Shown: positions 5,286 to 58,022 of the stretch, piece by piece | How positions within the stretch are numbered: position 1 is the stretch's first letter | Layout: every line of letters begins with the position of its first letter | Assembly (NCBI GenBank): GCA_028821455.1 | Contig: JAPPGE010000082.1 | Coordinates: 1 to 64,000 of the forward strand | Reading direction: 5' to 3' | DNA from: a bacterium | GTDB taxonomy: Bacteria > Pseudomonadota > Alphaproteobacteria > SP197 | Length of the DNA: 64,000 nt | Notes under the pieces: model-generated | Told to the model about the DNA's origin: nothing | What the model saw: only the letters and a program-made list of their open reading frames with translations | The model's database searches: none | Made by a program: the position numbers and the translations under genes

Positions 5286-5957
5286 ATGACCCGCAAGTCC
5301 TGGGGATATGCCGCCGACAACGGACCATCGTGCTGGGCTTGCCTTGACCCCGCCTTCCGGCTCTGCGGTTGCGGCGCCGAGCAGTCGCCGATCGACCTTG
5401 TGGAGGCGCGTGTGGCGAACGTGCCGTCCATCCGGTTCGAATACGGACCGATTCGTGCTGCCATCGAGGACACCGGCCGGACCGTCCAGTTCAATTCCGG
5501 GCCCGGGCGCGTCCTCCTGGTAGGCAGTCATCGCTACGAACTTCAGCAGTTCCATTTCCACCACGCCAGTGAACATCTCGTCGACGGCACGACGTGGCCG
5601 ATGGAACTGCACCTGGTGCACGCCGACCGCAAGGGCCGGCTGGCCGTGGTCGGAGTCCTCATCGGGGAGGGCGAGGCCAATCCCGCCGCGGACCTGCTGT
5701 GGCAGGCACTCGTGGACGAGCCGGAATCACTCGGGCATATCGACGTCGATCCTGCCGCCCTGCTTCCCGCCACGAAGAGGGCGTGGCGCTACCAGGGATC
5801 TCTCACCACGCCGCCCTGCAGCGAGGGTGTCAGCTGGATTGTTCTCGCCGACACGATCACCTTCTCCGCCCCCCAGATTGCCGCCTTCACGAACTTCCAT
5901 CCGCCTAACTGCCGGCCCGTCCAGCTCCTCGGCAGGCGCTCCCTCGTCATCGGCTGA
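5286..5957 (+). CDS. Alpha-class carbonic anhydrase, no visible signal peptide
   Basis: 223 residues. Alpha carbonic anhydrases interconvert CO2 and bicarbonate at a three-His zinc site. Ligands are H90 and H92 in 'QFHFHHASEH' and H109 in 'MELHLVHAD'; E107 is also kept. The 'QSPIDL' (33-38) and 'TTPPCSEGVSW' family blocks are present. The protein starts at MTRKSWGYAADNG with no hydrophobic leader, whereas bacterial alpha enzymes are usually periplasmic. The N terminus is unusually Cys-rich (C16, C19, C27, C29). The last 19 codons and the stop have a second, degraded copy at 6835-6894. Confidence 0.93.
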   Translation: MTRKSWGYAADNGPSCWACLDPAFRLCGCGAEQSPIDLVEARVANVPSIRFEYGPIRAAIEDTGRTVQFNSGPGRVLLVGSHRYELQQFHFHHASEHLVDGTTWPMELHLVHADRKGRLAVVGVLIGEGEANPAADLLWQALVDEPESLGHIDVDPAALLPATKRAWRYQGSLTTPPCSEGVSWIVLADTITFSAPQIAAFTNFHPPNCRPVQLLGRRSLVIG

Positions 5958-6831: not shown

Positions 6832-6894
6832 TGCCATCCACCGAATTGCCGGCCCGTCCAGCGCCTTGGCGGGCGCTCTCCTGTCATCGGCTGA
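6832..6894 (+). pseudogene. Duplicated 3' end of the carbonic anhydrase gene (remnant)
   Basis: Read in frame, this stretch encodes 'CHPPNCRPVQRLGGRSPVIG' and a TGA. The true end of the carbonic anhydrase at 5898-5957 encodes 'HPPNCRPVQLLGRRSLVIG' and a TGA. By eye, about 50 of 60 bases match, and the codon frame and stop are kept. Similarity fades on both sides. The two copies flank the toxin-antitoxin pair about 0.94 kb apart, as if a segment had been inserted into, or duplicated with, the gene end. Confidence 0.75.
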
Positions 6895-32786: not shown

Positions 32787-33671
32787 GTGAGCGTCAACGA
32801 GGCAAACCGGCCGGCCATGGTGGCGGGTGTGCTCCTGGTCGTTGCCGGGGCCGTCTGTTACGGACTGCTTCCGCTGCCCCTGGAGATCCTGAGGGACGAG
32901 GGAGTTGGCTCGACGTCGTCACTCCTGGTCAGGTTCGGCGTTTCCATCGTGGTCCTCGGAGCCATCGTCGCCTGGCGGCGATGCCCCGGGGGAGCCTTGA
33001 GAGCTCCCCTCTTCGCCGGTCTCGGTATCGGGGCCGCCACGATCTTTCTCTTCGAGGGCTATGCGCGGCTGCCGGCCTCGACCACGATTCTCGTCTTCTA
33101 CACCTACCCTGCTTTCACGCTCGTTCTGGCAAGCCTCCTGTTCCGGGCCGGCCTGGAATGGCGCACGATCCTGGCCATCGCCCTGGTCCTGGGTGCGGCG
33201 GGACTCATCGTCACTCCCGGCAGTCTTGAAGCGACACCGCTTGGCGCAGTGTTGATCACGTTCGGCGCCCCGTTGGGTTACGGGCTCTATCTCGCCTGCC
33301 TGGGCGCGGCGGATGGCCATGTCCTGTGGCGCACCCTTGTCGTCAGCATGGCTGCCTGCGTCGTAACCCTGGTCTGGCACCTCGTGTCGGATGCCTCGCT
33401 CGGCTGGCCGGTCTCGACGAATGGCTGGATCTCCCTTGGCTGGGTCGGTCTGGGCACCGGGATCCTGGCAACCTGCCTGGTGGTGGCCGGGACCGCGATG
33501 GCAGGGAGCGGCCGTTCCGCCGTGGCCGGTTCGGCCGAACTCGTCACCGTGCTTCTCACCGGCTGGCTGCTGTTCGGCGAAGCGCTGCACTGGCAAGCCG
33601 TGGCTGGCGCGCTCGCGATCCTTGCGGCCATCGTTGTCAGCCTGCCGCGTGCCTCTCGGCGATCGTGGTGA
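32787..33671 (+). CDS. EamA/DMT-family transporter
   Basis: 294 residues with about ten hydrophobic helices in two EamA repeats. It starts at a GTG seven bases after AAGGAG (32774-32779). 'AATIFLFEGYARLPASTTIL' and 'TCLVVAGTAMAGSGRSAVAG' are the characteristic second-helix and eighth-helix regions. Family members export amino acids, nucleobases or other small metabolites; the substrate is unknown. The 3' end overlaps the convergent uracil-DNA glycosylase gene by 35 bases. Confidence 0.88.
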   Translation: MSVNEANRPAMVAGVLLVVAGAVCYGLLPLPLEILRDEGVGSTSSLLVRFGVSIVVLGAIVAWRRCPGGALRAPLFAGLGIGAATIFLFEGYARLPASTTILVFYTYPAFTLVLASLLFRAGLEWRTILAIALVLGAAGLIVTPGSLEATPLGAVLITFGAPLGYGLYLACLGAADGHVLWRTLVVSMAACVVTLVWHLVSDASLGWPVSTNGWISLGWVGLGTGILATCLVVAGTAMAGSGRSAVAGSAELVTVLLTGWLLFGEALHWQAVAGALAILAAIVVSLPRASRRSW

Positions 33672-34278
33672 AGATGCGCCTGAACATTTTCCAGGTCAGG
33701 CGACCGGTGTTGGTGTTCAGCCGGGAGCAGTGGTAGCTGTCGACGAGGACGAGGCCATCAGCCAGGTCATGCACGGCGCCATGGGCGAACGGGAAGGCGG
33801 AGCGCCTGACGCTGACGGCATCGAGGATGGCCTGGTGGGCGAGACCACCGAGGGCAAGTACGGTATCGAGATGCGGCAGGGCCTTCAGTTCCCGTGAAAG
33901 GAACGTGTTGCAGGACCGGATTTCGGCAGCAAGCGGCCTGTTCCCGGGCGGAACGCATCGCACCGCATTGGTGATCCGGCACTCCACCAGTTCCAGACCG
34001 TCATCCGGGCGGGCGCCATAGCTGCCCCTGGCGTAGCCTGCCCCGATCAGTGCCGGGTAGAGGAAATCGCCCGCACCGTCACCCGTGAAGGGACGCCCGG
34101 TCGCGTTGGCGCCCCTCAGGCCCGGAGCGAGTCCCACCACCAGAAGACGGGCATTCCGGGGTCCGAATGTGGGAACGGGAGCATTGAACCAGTCCGGCTC
34201 CTTCTCCCGCCAGGCGTGACGGAAGGCCACGAGGCGTGGGCACAGGGGGCAGTCGGGAAGGGGCTCGCCAGCGGTCAT
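33637..34278 (-). CDS. Uracil-DNA glycosylase, family 5 (UdgB-like)
   Basis: 213 residues from the ATG at 34278. Iron-sulfur uracil-DNA glycosylase: four Cys ligands appear as 'CPLCPRL' (C10, C13) and 'RCVPPGNRPLAAEIRSC'. Motif A reads 'VGLAPGLRGANATGRPFTGD', matching family 5 with G/A instead of the catalytic Asp of family 1. Motif B is 'HCSRLNTNTGRLT', where family members usually have HPS; the Pro is Cys here. It removes uracil or deaminated bases from DNA. It is divergent from folK, with a long palindrome between. Confidence 0.85.
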   Translation of the reverse strand: MTAGEPLPDCPLCPRLVAFRHAWREKEPDWFNAPVPTFGPRNARLLVVGLAPGLRGANATGRPFTGDGAGDFLYPALIGAGYARGSYGARPDDGLELVECRITNAVRCVPPGNRPLAAEIRSCNTFLSRELKALPHLDTVLALGGLAHQAILDAVSVRRSAFPFAHGAVHDLADGLVLVDSYHCSRLNTNTGRLTWKMFRRIFTTIAERHAAG

Positions 34279-34304
34279 CAAGGCGCCTCGTCTTCTTCAG
34301 TGAC

Positions 34305-34348
34305 GGCACCTGCAACCCTTCGCCGCACGGCGAAGGGTTGCAGGTGCC
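34305..34348. repeat. Perfect 44-base palindrome beside the folK ribosome binding site
   Basis: The arms GGCACCTGCAACCCTTCGCC plus G (34305-34325) and the exact reverse complement (34328-34348) enclose only CA. No mismatch is seen over 21 base pairs. It ends one base before GGAGG (34350-34354) of folK and lies 27 bases upstream of the divergent glycosylase gene. It could act as a transcript-end or translation-control hairpin, or be a REP-like mobile palindrome. No T-run follows on the plus strand. Confidence 0.8.
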
Positions 34349-34362
34349 CGGAGGCACTCTAT

Positions 34363-34923
34363 ATGAAGCATCCGCAGATGTCGGCAAACTCCTCCCGCCT
34401 TAAGGGCGGCATATACGTGGCACTGGGCGCCAATCTTGCTTCGGCGGTTGGACCACCGCGGCGCACTCTCGAAGAGGCGCTGGCGCGGTTCCGCCATGCC
34501 GGTGTGGACGTTCTCGATGTGTCGCACTGGTACGAAACGCGACCCATGGGCGGCCGTGATCAACCCCGGTACGTCAACGGGGTCGCAGAGGTCGCCACGG
34601 AGCGCGACCCGGAGGCACTGCTCGAATTCCTTCACGGCATCGAGGAGAGCCTCGGCCGGCAGCGTCGCCGGCGCTGGGAATCCCGCACCGTGGATCTCGA
34701 CCTCATCGACTACCGGGGTCTTGAAAGAACCGGCCCACCTCCCGTACTGCCCCATCCCGGTGCGGTCTCAAGACTCTTCGTCCTGCTGCCGCTCAACGAT
34801 GTGGCGCCCGCCTGGAGACATCCGGTGACCGGGCAGGCCATCGATTGCCTCATCCGGGCGCTGCCCAGGCGCGATGGCGATATCGAGCGTCTTGCCCCCG
34901 ACTCCCGGCAGGGGTTGTCATGA
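34363..34923 (+). CDS. folK: 2-amino-4-hydroxy-6-hydroxymethyldihydropteridine pyrophosphokinase
   Basis: 186 residues from the ATG at 34363, eight bases after GGAGG; an ATG at 34378 is the alternative. HPPK transfers pyrophosphate from ATP to the pterin in folate synthesis. Blocks: 'IYVALGANLASAVGPPRRTL', 'YETRPMGGRDQPRYVNGVAE', 'RRRRWESRTVDLDLIDY' (magnesium-binding D-x-D) and 'LPHPGAVSRLFVLLPLNDVA'. The usual neighbours folP and folB are absent. rpoZ follows 56 bases downstream. Confidence 0.94.
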   Translation: MKHPQMSANSSRLKGGIYVALGANLASAVGPPRRTLEEALARFRHAGVDVLDVSHWYETRPMGGRDQPRYVNGVAEVATERDPEALLEFLHGIEESLGRQRRRRWESRTVDLDLIDYRGLERTGPPPVLPHPGAVSRLFVLLPLNDVAPAWRHPVTGQAIDCLIRALPRRDGDIERLAPDSRQGLS

Positions 34924-34979
34924 CGACGTGATGCTGGCATTTTCAGGCCCTGCTCCGGCTCCCAAGATCGAGGTGATGA

Positions 34980-35345
34980 ATGGCCCGATTGACTGTTGAA
35001 GACTGTGTCGAACGCGTGAGCAACCGTTTCGAACTGGTTCTCCTGGCCGCCCAGCGGGCCCGCGATTTGGGCAAGGGGGCGGAACTGACTGTCGACAAGG
35101 ACAACGACAAGCATCCTGTCATCGCCCTGCGCGAGATCGCGGACGACACGATTTCGCTGGATGCCGTGCGCCGCAAGCTGGTCTATGGCAGCGAGACCGA
35201 AGAGGACGAGAATGTCGACAATGTCGAGGAACTCGGCCTGGCGGCGGACAATCCACTGGATCGGGCCTTTGCCAATCTCGACCTCGACAGCGATCAGCAC
35301 AACGAAGCCTGGGGCACCGGCATCGAAGACGGATCCACCCGCTAG
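34980..35345 (+). CDS. rpoZ: DNA-directed RNA polymerase omega subunit
   Basis: 121 residues. Omega assists folding of beta prime and is part of the ppGpp-binding site. The N-terminal '[20 protein letters not shown]' and '[16 protein letters not shown]' are diagnostic. The following helix ('[20 protein letters not shown]') and a long acidic tail complete it. It lies 19 bases upstream of the (p)ppGpp synthetase gene, a conserved and functionally sensible pairing. Confidence 0.96.
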
Positions 35346-35364
35346 CAGAATGTGAGCCCGGACG

Positions 35365-37479
35365 ATGCTCCGGCAGTTTGAACTGGTTGAGCGGGTCAGG
35401 AGCTACGACGCAGAGGTCGACGAGGCGGCTCTCAACAGCGCCTACGTGTTCGCCATGGTCAAGCACGGCTCCCAGACACGTGACTCAGGCGATCCCTACT
35501 TCTCCCACCCCGTCGAGGTCGCCGGCATCCTTGCCGACATGAAGCTGGACAGCCAGTCCATCATCACAGGGCTGTTGCACGACACCGTCGAGGATACCGA
35601 CACCACGCTCGATGAGATTTCCGGCAAGTTCGGCCCCCAGATTGCCCATCTGGTTGACGGTGTCACCAAACTTTCGCAACTCGAGAACCAGGCCGAGGAA
35701 GGCCAGCGCACCATGGGCAACTATGCCAAGCTGTTTCTGGCCATGTCGGAGGACCTGCGTGTCCTCCTGGTCAAGCTGGCGGACCGGCTCCACAACATGC
35801 GTACGCTGCACTACGTGCGGCGCGAGGACAAGCGCCTGCGTATCGCCCGCGAGACCATGGAAATCTACGTTCCCATGGCCGAACGGATCGGCATGCAATG
35901 GCTCAAGGAGGAGCTCGAGGATCTCGCTTTCAGCCATATCAACGGGGACGCCCGCAACTCCATCCTGGAGCGCCTGCGCTTCCTGCGGCCGGACTCCAAC
36001 CTTGCCAAGATCGAGCGCCATCTCAAACAAGTCCTCAAGAACGGCGGCCTCACTGCCAGGGTCGACGGTCGCGAGAAGAAGCCGCACGCCATCTGGCGCA
36101 AGATGCAGCGCAAGAATGTTTCCTTCGATCAGCTCTCGGATATCGTCGCCTTCCGGGTGGTGGTTTCGGAGGTTGCAGACTGCTATGCAGCGCTTGGCGT
36201 CATTCACGGCGTCTGGCCGATGATTCCCGATCGCTTCAAGGACTACATCTCGACGCCGAAGCCCAATGGTTACCGTTCCATCCATACGACCGTGCACGGG
36301 CCCGAGGGCAAGCGTCTCGAGATCCAGATACGGACCCGGGAGATGGACGAAGTCGCCGAGTATGGAGTCGCCGCCCACTGGAGCTATACGGCCGGCGAAG
36401 ACCGTGCCTCGGCAAGCGAGGGCAGCCAGTACCGGTGGGTGCGCCAGCTGCTGGACTCCATCGACAGCACGTCGGACCCCGAGGAATTCATCAAGAACAC
36501 CAAGCTGCAACTCTTCCAGGACAGGGTGTACTGCTTCACCCCAATGGGCGAAATCCACGAATTGCCGCGCAATGCGACTCCCGTCGACTTTGCCTATGCC
36601 ATCCACACGAGGATCGGGGACACCTGTGTTGGCGCCAAGATCAACGGTGTGTCCAAGCGCCTTGACACGATCCTGCAGAATGGCGACCAGGTCGAAATCA
36701 TGCGGTCGCGCTACGCTTCGCCCAACCCGTTGTGGGCGCGATTTGTCGTCACCGGTCGTGCCCACTCGAGAATCCGCCGCCACATCCGCATCAAGGAACG
36801 CGGCGAGTACATCCGGCTGGGGCGGGCCATAATCCAGCAGACCTGCGCCTCGCTGCGTCGCGCGGCCGATGACGATCTTCTCGAGAAATTTGCGGAGGCG
36901 TTCGGCAAGCGCACCGTGGATGATCTCCTCGAGGCCGTGGGACGTGGCGAGATCACCAGCGAGAGGGTCCGCCGTCTCCTGACGTCGAAACGGTCGCCGT
37001 CACGCAGGCGCTTCCAGTCGTCGAGCAAGCATGCCGTCTCGATCGACGGTCTCACTCCTGGAATAACCGTTCACCATGCCGAGTGCTGTCACCCTCTTCC
37101 TGGCGACCGCATCGTCGGCATTGTCGAGTCCGGCAAGGGCGTGGCCATCCATACAATCGACTGCGACACCCTGCAAAAGCACGAGAATTCGATCGAGGAG
37201 TGGCTCGATGTCTCGTGGTCGCCCGATGGCGCCGCACCTGAACACTACGTCGGGCGCATTGCCGTTGACGTCATCAACCAGCCCGGCGCCCTTGGCGAGA
37301 TCACCACCGAAATCGGCAATCAGGACGCCAACATCACCAACCTGAAGATCAATGCGCGTACCGCCGATTTCTTTGGCATGCTCATTGACCTTGAGGTCCA
37401 TGACGTCCATCACCTGACATCCATCATCGCCGCCCTGCGGTCGATTGCGATTGTCATGGACATTTCCAGAGCTCCCTGA
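35365..37479 (+). CDS. rsh: Bifunctional (p)ppGpp synthetase/hydrolase (RelA/SpoT homologue)
   Basis: 704 residues. The N-terminal HD hydrolase domain has 'GLLHDTVEDT' (H72-D73) and 'LVKLADRLHNMRTL'. The synthetase domain has 'DRFKDYISTPKPNGYRSIHT' with the RFKD form seen in bifunctional enzymes, and 'EIQIRTREMDEVAEYG'. A TGS domain ('RVYCFTPMGEIHELPRNATP'), a helical/zinc-finger-like region and a C-terminal ACT domain follow. It is the likely only long RSH of this organism and governs the stringent response. Confidence 0.96.
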   Translation: MLRQFELVERVRSYDAEVDEAALNSAYVFAMVKHGSQTRDSGDPYFSHPVEVAGILADMKLDSQSIITGLLHDTVEDTDTTLDEISGKFGPQIAHLVDGVTKLSQLENQAEEGQRTMGNYAKLFLAMSEDLRVLLVKLADRLHNMRTLHYVRREDKRLRIARETMEIYVPMAERIGMQWLKEELEDLAFSHINGDARNSILERLRFLRPDSNLAKIERHLKQVLKNGGLTARVDGREKKPHAIWRKMQRKNVSFDQLSDIVAFRVVVSEVADCYAALGVIHGVWPMIPDRFKDYISTPKPNGYRSIHTTVHGPEGKRLEIQIRTREMDEVAEYGVAAHWSYTAGEDRASASEGSQYRWVRQLLDSIDSTSDPEEFIKNTKLQLFQDRVYCFTPMGEIHELPRNATPVDFAYAIHTRIGDTCVGAKINGVSKRLDTILQNGDQVEIMRSRYASPNPLWARFVVTGRAHSRIRRHIRIKERGEYIRLGRAIIQQTCASLRRAADDDLLEKFAEAFGKRTVDDLLEAVGRGEITSERVRRLLTSKRSPSRRRFQSSSKHAVSIDGLTPGITVHHAECCHPLPGDRIVGIVESGKGVAIHTIDCDTLQKHENSIEEWLDVSWSPDGAAPEHYVGRIAVDVINQPGALGEITTEIGNQDANITNLKINARTADFFGMLIDLEVHDVHHLTSIIAALRSIAIVMDISRAP

Positions 37480-56492: not shown

Positions 56493-58022
56493 TCACTCGT
56501 CTCCAGTTGCCGGAAGTCTGATGGGAAAGCGCGAGCGGATGACCTGATCCGCTGTTGCTTCGAGGTGAGACGGCGCCGGGGCGTCGACGATGCGGGCGAC
56601 TCTGGACCGTGCCCTTTCCCAGAGCGATACCGGACCGGACTCGACCCACTCGTGCACGCTGCGCCTGTCACCCAGGCACGGGTAGACATACTCGCTCTTC
56701 ATGAGCGCCAGTGTCTGCGGTTCGCCAAGGTAGTGGCCATCGCCCCGAACAACGCGCTCCATGGCGTCAAGGTCGATGGCATCCGGCGTGACGTCAACGC
56801 CGCGCACCGAACGCAGGATGGCGCCCAGCATTTCGTCATCGATGACAAGGGCCTCTGGCGAGGCCACAGTGATGGATCCCAGCATGCCGACGGACAGATT
56901 GATCATGTCTGCTCCCGCGTGAGCAGCCAGGGCAATGGTGTAGGCCTTCTCATACCCGGCCTGGACGTCCGCCTCCTTGGAGTCTGTCATGCCGGCGGCA
57001 ACCGTGGACGGCAGCTGAAGATGGCGCAGGAGCTGGGCTGCTGCTGCATTCGCAATGGCCGATTCGCCGCCTCCACCACTCATGGCGCCGGTTCTGAGAT
57101 CGGAGATGAACGGCATGAAGGCGTGGATGACGGGGTAGCCGGGCTTGAGGAGGTCCACCACCATGAGGCCGGCGAGGGTCTCGGCGAGTCCCTGGGCGAG
57201 GGCGCCGGCCAGTGTGACGGGGCTTGTGGCGCCCGCCTGGCCCGCCGAACATGTCTGCAGCGGTATGCCTTCGGCGATGGCGGCGCGCATGATGTCGACA
57301 CCATCGGGTGCATAGCGAAGAGGTGAGACTGCATGCACCACAACCGCCATGCAGAAGGGGTGCCGGCGAAAGCCGCCTTCGGCCCCAAGAGCGCAGTCGA
57401 ACATGGACACCACCGGAGCGACGTGACCGGCATGGGCGAATGAGGTGCCGATGGGCTTGCTCGTTCCGGCAAGGCAGGCATAGGCGGTGTTAATGTCGAT
57501 TTCGAAGGTGTCGGTCATGTCCCGCGCCACAAGGGGGCGGATGCCGTAGTGCACGTTTGGACACGCATCCACCACCCGCATGATGGAAAGGAGATCACGA
57601 AGCGTGGCGGCTCGATAGCATCCGGTGGCGGCATCGAGCACATCGATGGCGGCTCCGCCGGTGCCGGTATGGACCAGACCATTGCCCGCATCGATGCCCC
57701 GGTCCTCGACGAAGCCCGGCACGGTCACGCTCTTCGCCGCCCGCGCCACGGCCTTCTCGACCCGCAGGCGGGGGAAGATAATGCGCCCGTCCCCGTGCCG
57801 CCTGGCGCCATCATCAATCGCAAGCCGGATGAACCAGTCCGGAGCCGATGCCATGCCGATCCGTTCGAGAATGGAAAAGGCGCTGTCGATGATCGTGTCG
57901 CGGGACGTGTCATCGAGCGGCGAGAACCGGCCACCCCGGTCCCTGCGCGGAGCGTTTGCCGGGAGACTGGCCGATCCTCGGGATCTCGGCCGCGCCGCCC
58001 GCTGGTTGTCGGTCCGGCTCAT
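56493..58022 (-). CDS. MttB-family trimethylamine/betaine methyltransferase homologue without pyrrolysine
   Basis: 509 residues, a TIM-barrel methyltransferase of the COG5598 family. 'LVHTGTGGAAIDVLDAATGC' near the N-terminal third and 'QTCSAGQAGATSPVTLAGAL' in the core match the family. The reading frame is continuous, with no in-frame UAG, so the pyrrolysine of archaeal MttB is absent. Known non-pyrrolysine members act on glycine betaine or related quaternary amines and pass the methyl to a corrinoid protein. No corrinoid protein gene is adjacent. The 40-residue N terminus is basic and disordered. Confidence 0.88.
   Translation of the reverse strand: MSRTDNQRAARPRSRGSASLPANAPRRDRGGRFSPLDDTSRDTIIDSAFSILERIGMASAPDWFIRLAIDDGARRHGDGRIIFPRLRVEKAVARAAKSVTVPGFVEDRGIDAGNGLVHTGTGGAAIDVLDAATGCYRAATLRDLLSIMRVVDACPNVHYGIRPLVARDMTDTFEIDINTAYACLAGTSKPIGTSFAHAGHVAPVVSMFDCALGAEGGFRRHPFCMAVVVHAVSPLRYAPDGVDIMRAAIAEGIPLQTCSAGQAGATSPVTLAGALAQGLAETLAGLMVVDLLKPGYPVIHAFMPFISDLRTGAMSGGGGESAIANAAAAQLLRHLQLPSTVAAGMTDSKEADVQAGYEKAYTIALAAHAGADMINLSVGMLGSITVASPEALVIDDEMLGAILRSVRGVDVTPDAIDLDAMERVVRGDGHYLGEPQTLALMKSEYVYPCLGDRRSVHEWVESGPVSLWERARSRVARIVDAPAPSHLEATADQVIRSRFPIRLPATGDE

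Follow-up and report, generated by a model that had tools for sequence, protein, structure and literature searches.

Three kinds of described sequence come closest to the long palindrome analysed here. Perfect inverted repeats close to the starts and ends of bacterial transcripts have been surveyed; their arms are reported to be conserved and their spacers variable, a pattern that is clearest at terminators, where such repeats are reported to be enriched (PMC13155455). Quasipalindromes form the second kind, and template switching is reported to make them more perfect (PMC7202029). The third kind comprises the REP/RAYT elements (PMC8266576), which are palindromic and extragenic. Elements of this kind have many dispersed copies in a genome that also carries a Y1-type transposase. 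Our palindrome resembles the surveyed repeats in being intergenic and in having arms that are more conserved than the centre, and differs from them in that it has no terminator signature and lies between divergent genes. Like the template-switch sites, it has an imperfect stem in relatives and a perfect one in our sequence; here, however, a comparison of four genomes leads to the mutation only indirectly, and the conservation of the arms between species suggests a function besides. It shares its palindromic and extragenic character with the REP/RAYT elements but was found in a single copy, in a genome with no match to PF01797.

The analysed sequence comprises 64,000 bases of an alphaproteobacterial genome (assembly GCA_028821455.1, contig JAPPGE010000082.1, positions 1 to 64,000; the whole stretch is called the window below). 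The palindrome is housed in the 99-base junction (34279-34377) between a uracil-DNA glycosylase superfamily gene and folK, and the folK side of this junction consists of the folK, rpoZ and relA/spoT genes. The features of the locus are as follows.

33637-34278, minus strand: uracil-DNA glycosylase superfamily gene (UDG), divergent from folK (Pfam PF03167, E 1.9e-25)
34305-34325, no strand: left arm, GGCACCTGCAACCCTTCGCCG, 21 nt
34326-34327, no strand: two-base centre CA between the arms
34328-34348, no strand: right arm, 21 nt, 100% complementary to the left arm
34338-34365, plus strand: putative promoter-like element, TTGCAG (34338-34343, within the right arm), 16 nt, TATATG (34360-34365)
34350-34354, plus strand: GGAGG, Shine-Dalgarno-like, in the window only (absent in the relatives L033, L034 and L035)
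34363-34365, plus strand: first possible folK start, ATG (ATA in L033)
34378-34923, plus strand: folK (HPPK) from the start codon common to four genomes (Pfam PF01288, E 7.2e-32)

The original prediction described a 44-base palindrome, with 21 perfect pairs and a two-base centre, that ends one base before GGAGG. We confirmed it at 34305-34348, with a single C separating the end of the right arm (34348) from GGAGG (34350-34354). The stem had also been expected to be very stable as RNA, and indeed the 44-mer folds at -44.1 kcal/mol with 20 pairs and a 4-base loop, while the 119-nt context around the palindrome has a fold z-score of -6.06 relative to 200 shuffles. The rarity of such a structure was assessed in a sample of 358,907 bp, comprising the window and 20 stretches of its own genome (8% of the genome). 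When arms of at least 11 bases and loops of 0-10 bases are required, this sample yields 12 perfect inverted repeats, among which the UDG-folK palindrome has the longest arm (21), the next being 15, 14 and 13; in two sequences simulated from the sample with a first-order Markov model, no arm exceeded 13. The palindrome is exceptional within the sampled 8% of the genome, and chance is excluded. Elsewhere in the window, two direct repeats of 61 bases (5897-5957 and 6834-6894; 85% identical, starts 937 bases apart) both end in TGA on the plus strand.

Searches with folK led to three genomes at 82-85% protein identity, and a related sequence occupies the same place in the window and in their loci L033, L034 and L035 (over the 350 bases compared, these equal L004, L006 and L005, respectively). 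Because other MAGs carry it there too, an assembly error is an unlikely source of the palindrome. L033 (MPMV01000005.1) is bin56 of a marine sponge study, which lists it as Alphaproteobacteria, Rickettsiales, EF100-94H03 (PMC5649159). The stems of the relatives differ from that of the window. As DNA, the stem of L033 consists of 15 perfect pairs that enclose a 10-base centre, and that of L035 is broken by G-T and becomes full only when G-U is allowed; as folK-sense RNA, L035 forms 20 pairs including G-U, and L033 forms 17 outer and 2 inner pairs. In L034 the right arm is intact, and the left arm is shorter and altered over most of its length. The central tetranucleotide is GCAC in the window, TTGG in L033, CTGG in L035 and CCGG in L034, and near the end of the right arm the window has C where all three relatives have T. 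Since all relatives share this T and have another central tetranucleotide, the changes that complete the window's stem fall on the branch between the window and the relatives, and could have run in either direction if the root lies there. In the tree built from UDG, folK, rpoZ and relA (2,919 columns), L034 groups with L035 with a support of 100. By parsimony, the stem would predate all four genomes and would have been lost in L034, unless the root is placed on the L034 branch. The L034 change itself (2006-2081), with the left arm heavily altered on a short branch and the right arm untouched, is clustered and possibly represents a template-switch or hairpin-cleavage event.

We compared gene order at 33 loci (the window, L033-L035, L007-L032 and L036-L038), a set that was not de-duplicated, L009 and L036 apparently being one locus, and that leaves out L039-L042 and the folK matches without a locus. 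The order UDG(-) NYN(-) folK(+) is found at 22 of these loci, where NYN is the label we presume for a protein with FIDGPNL near its start. Six loci have UDG(-) directly followed by folK(+), namely the four of the palindrome's clade together with L022 and L026; two have NYN(-) folK(+), and at the remaining three folK stands alone within the examined stretch. An NYN representative had no match anywhere in G000 (the own genome), G001 and G004, three of the four clade genomes, and two weak matches in G007 (contamination 8%), which lie on another contig and show 56% and 42% identity over 66 residues each. Good matches were obtained in G003, G005 and G008, and in G005 the NYN and UDG genes are adjacent on contig C38. 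NYN is absent between UDG and folK in all four clade genomes; this clade has thus lost a gene from the site, and the palindrome occupies the new UDG-folK junction. The pairing of junction and palindrome is not a rule, because the genes of L022 and L026 are arranged likewise without a long arm (longest perfect arm 5 in the 150 bases before folK). Across the 150 bases upstream of folK at 37 loci, the longest perfect arm is that of the window (21), with 15 in L033 and 10 in L007. The last of these, from another genome of the genus, carries a perfect 20-base palindrome, GATGTCCGGATCCGGACATC, within this distance 5' of folK.

The arms, with columns defined from the window alone, are more conserved than their surroundings. 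Among the window, L033 and L035, 36 of 42 arm columns are identical. By one-sided Fisher tests, this share exceeds both that of the other intergenic columns (35 of 57; p = 0.0066) and that of fourfold sites (344 of 483; p = 0.028). When all four genomes are considered, 18 of 21 columns of the right arm remain identical, and the corresponding figure for fourfold sites is 311 of 474 (p = 0.041). In the left arm, 18 of 21 columns are identical among the window, L033 and L035, and 7 of 21 once L034 is added. Identity in the UDG-side flank is 14 of 26 columns for three genomes and 11 of 26 for four, and in the folK-side flank 21 of 29 and 19 of 29; the arms are therefore not sharply distinct on the folK side, where the flank is also fairly conserved. 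These comparisons of four genomes give moderate evidence that the arms are constrained, strongest for the right one. The perfection of the stem had been read as a sign of strong selection or recent spread. For strong selection, the p values above, from three to four genomes, are no more than moderate evidence, and recent spread is not borne out, as related stems stand at the same locus in two relatives. None of the 20 pairs has changed on both sides, so covariation neither supports nor excludes pairing.

The start of folK bears on the proposed role of GGAGG as its Shine-Dalgarno sequence. The ATG at 34378 is common to the window, L033, L034 and L035, and its counterpart, judged by eye, is exact in L010 and L012 and one codon later in L036. 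Within the window, GGAGG-N8-ATG could work as a ribosome binding site; however, none of the three relatives has GGAGG, and L033 has ATA in place of the ATG at 34363. The designation of GGAGG as the folK Shine-Dalgarno sequence is therefore doubtful and would apply to the window at most. For the same reasons, and with 29 nt between the stem and the common ATG, the suggested blocking or exposure of ribosome access is doubtful, though it could apply in the window. The right arm also contributes to a promoter-like element. A strict sigma-70 consensus scan found no site, and the weaker TTGCAG-N16-TATATG is present; the spacing of TTGCAG-N16 is kept in all four genomes, with TATATG in three and CATATA in L033. 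The pattern TTGC[AC][GA]-N16-18-TATA, chosen after the site had been seen, occurs five times on both strands of the 358,907 bases. For the mirrored TTGCAG facing UDG, we looked for a TATAAT-like hexamer at the right distance and found none.

Copies of the palindrome were sought in its own genome and beyond. With up to 3 mismatches, the 21-base arm matches only the palindrome's two arms in the own 4.36-Mb assembly (one match for the backwards control), and this is a firmer test of single-copy status than the covariance model described below. A 14-base half-site with at most 1 mismatch matched the own genome at four places, namely at both arms and at C60:51178 and C87:73863 (backwards control, 1); by eye, no second arm was seen within about 60-70 bases on either side of the latter two. 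The full palindrome, at up to 3 mismatches in 96 genomes (the own genome and relatives), matches the own genome alone, a search that speaks only to near-exact copies, since the more divergent stems of L033/G004 and L035/G007 escaped it. The covariance model, built from four sequences and run on 16 family genomes with 150 first-look candidates scored per genome (of 1863 in G000), so that weak copies could escape, had strong matches in four genomes, each at the orthologous site. It also returned seven weak matches (E 0.0174 to 0.855), of which the three inspected (G000 C91:32302, G001 C219:5041 and G004 C11:43838) were rejected, as they lie inside long stop-free frames and have no like stem. The intergenic region had no match in plasmid and phage collections. 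An exact 17-mer of the left arm occurs in three stretches of the viral_contigs set with one match apiece, so these stretches have no exact second arm; the single folK pattern match in that set is not a relative. The own genome (G000) has no match to PF01797, the Y1 transposase family, which we take to cover RAYT; in the control for this search, 5 of 14 named genomes had matches.

A palindromic, intergenic sequence invites the reading as a REP-like or other mobile repeat with a RAYT-type transposase, which the original prediction had raised and proposed to check by a search for further copies and for the transposase. Both came back empty, nothing in the plasmid and phage collections matched, and the strong model matches among the 16 family genomes (150 candidates each) are confined to the orthologous site. 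Within the assembly (completeness 98.63%), and for copies that differ by at most 3 of 21 bases, the mobile reading is refuted, and we consider it extremely improbable overall. The stem had also been proposed to end the divergent transcript. A bidirectional transcription terminator or insulator would agree with its strength and GC-richness and with the reported enrichment of perfect inverted repeats at terminators (PMC13155455). However, the flanks contain no T-run on either side of the stem, there are no terminator-like sites in 33500-35500, and two other hairpins of the sample (L071 and L083) do have T-rich tails. By gene order, moreover, the palindrome is upstream (5') of UDG and folK alike. 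A terminator is thus very improbable, and the proposed transcript end fails on these points. At the palindrome, Rfam 15 has no family at gathering score, its five matches (E 0.33-0.69) all being far below. The only match in the window at gathering score is PYLIS_3 (46.1 bits, 56891-56990, minus strand), away from the palindrome and inside an MTTB-family gene (PF06253; 56493-58022, minus strand), whose open frame of 509 codons includes no amber codon; this match probably reflects a resemblance to the mttB coding sequence rather than a pyrrolysine signal.

Two further readings are unlikely but deserve more weight. In one of them, the slightly less unlikely of the two, the stem would be transcribed in the folK operon leader as a 5' hairpin acting on mRNA stability or translation. 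The very stable fold given above agrees with this, as do the pairing of 91.3% of cells (41-53% with the partner slid) and the G-U pairs that the full stem of L035 needs. Several changes in the relatives leave G-U pairs in the folK sense, and their isolated 44/45-mers accordingly fold better in folK sense than in antisense (L033, -32.8 vs -29.5; L035, -40.4 vs -34.7; L034, -12.7 vs -9.4). The 81-base context of L033, however, folds better in antisense (-39.0 vs -35.4 in folK sense). An attempt to read the strand of action from the G-U pairs was set aside, the lean to folK sense amounting to about three sites for and one against (outside L034), with the longer L033 context opposite. Against an RNA leader also stand the lack of two-sided changes, for which the shuffle control was uninformative (500/500), the loss of the stem in L034 with its right arm kept, the unconserved GGAGG and distant common ATG, and the lack of an Rfam family at cut-off. 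In addition, the promoter-like element would put the transcript start downstream of the stem. The other reading, rather unlikely in our estimate, takes the palindrome for a mutational by-product, a functionless quasipalindrome at the NYN-loss junction that was perfected or broken by template switching. The palindrome lies where the NYN gene is missing, stem-completing changes set the window apart from all three relatives, the short L034 branch shows a heavily altered left arm, and template switching is reported to make quasipalindromes more perfect (PMC7202029). On the other hand, the arms are better conserved between species than other intergenic columns and fourfold sites, and template switching equalises arms within one genome, not between species. 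L022 and L026, where UDG adjoins folK too, have no such stem.

The explanation that we prefer, with a probability of roughly 45%, is that the palindrome is a single-copy, clade-specific cis-regulatory inverted repeat in the UDG/folK divergent control region, where it would serve as a DNA-level promoter/operator. The right arm would act at the DNA level within a folK promoter/operator (TTGCAG-16-TATATG), and the inverted left arm would supply dyad symmetry for a putative regulator. The perfect stem of the window, next to the slightly imperfect ones of its relatives, may result from template switching along the window branch, an ordinary way in which quasipalindromes are corrected. A DNA-level promoter/operator is favoured because the right arm is conserved in L034, where the stem is lost, and this survival would fit a role without need of pairing. 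As would suit a divergent promoter, both position and sequence are conserved, the right arm in all four genomes and the left arm in three. The shared position, the conservation of the arms above the intergenic and fourfold background and the constant TTGCAG spacing also argue for this explanation, as do the T and the differing central tetranucleotide of the relatives and the absence of NYN from between the genes in all four genomes. Against it, the significance is moderate and comes from three to four genomes, and the folK-proximal flank is fairly conserved as well. The site is single in its own genome, the sigma-70 scan was empty, and the mirrored TTGCAG has no -10-like hexamer; L034 is without most of the left arm, and L022 and L026 are without a long palindrome. 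The better folK-sense folding of the relatives' isolated hairpin would favour RNA.

A more specific history, which we regard as very improbable, is that UDG faced folK without its former promoter after the loss of NYN, and that the promoter-proximal segment of folK was duplicated in inverted orientation, the copy being fixed and kept as the present left arm. Such a fold-back duplication would have provided two unrelated genes with a symmetric control region in common. Among open-licence PMC articles, we found no paper on this UDG-folK intergenic region. The case shows that a perfect palindrome, however striking, need not be a mobile repeat but can be a single-copy element that is inherited at one locus. 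The fold-back duplication, if true, would provide a worked example of how a gene stripped of its operon promoter acquires a new control region.
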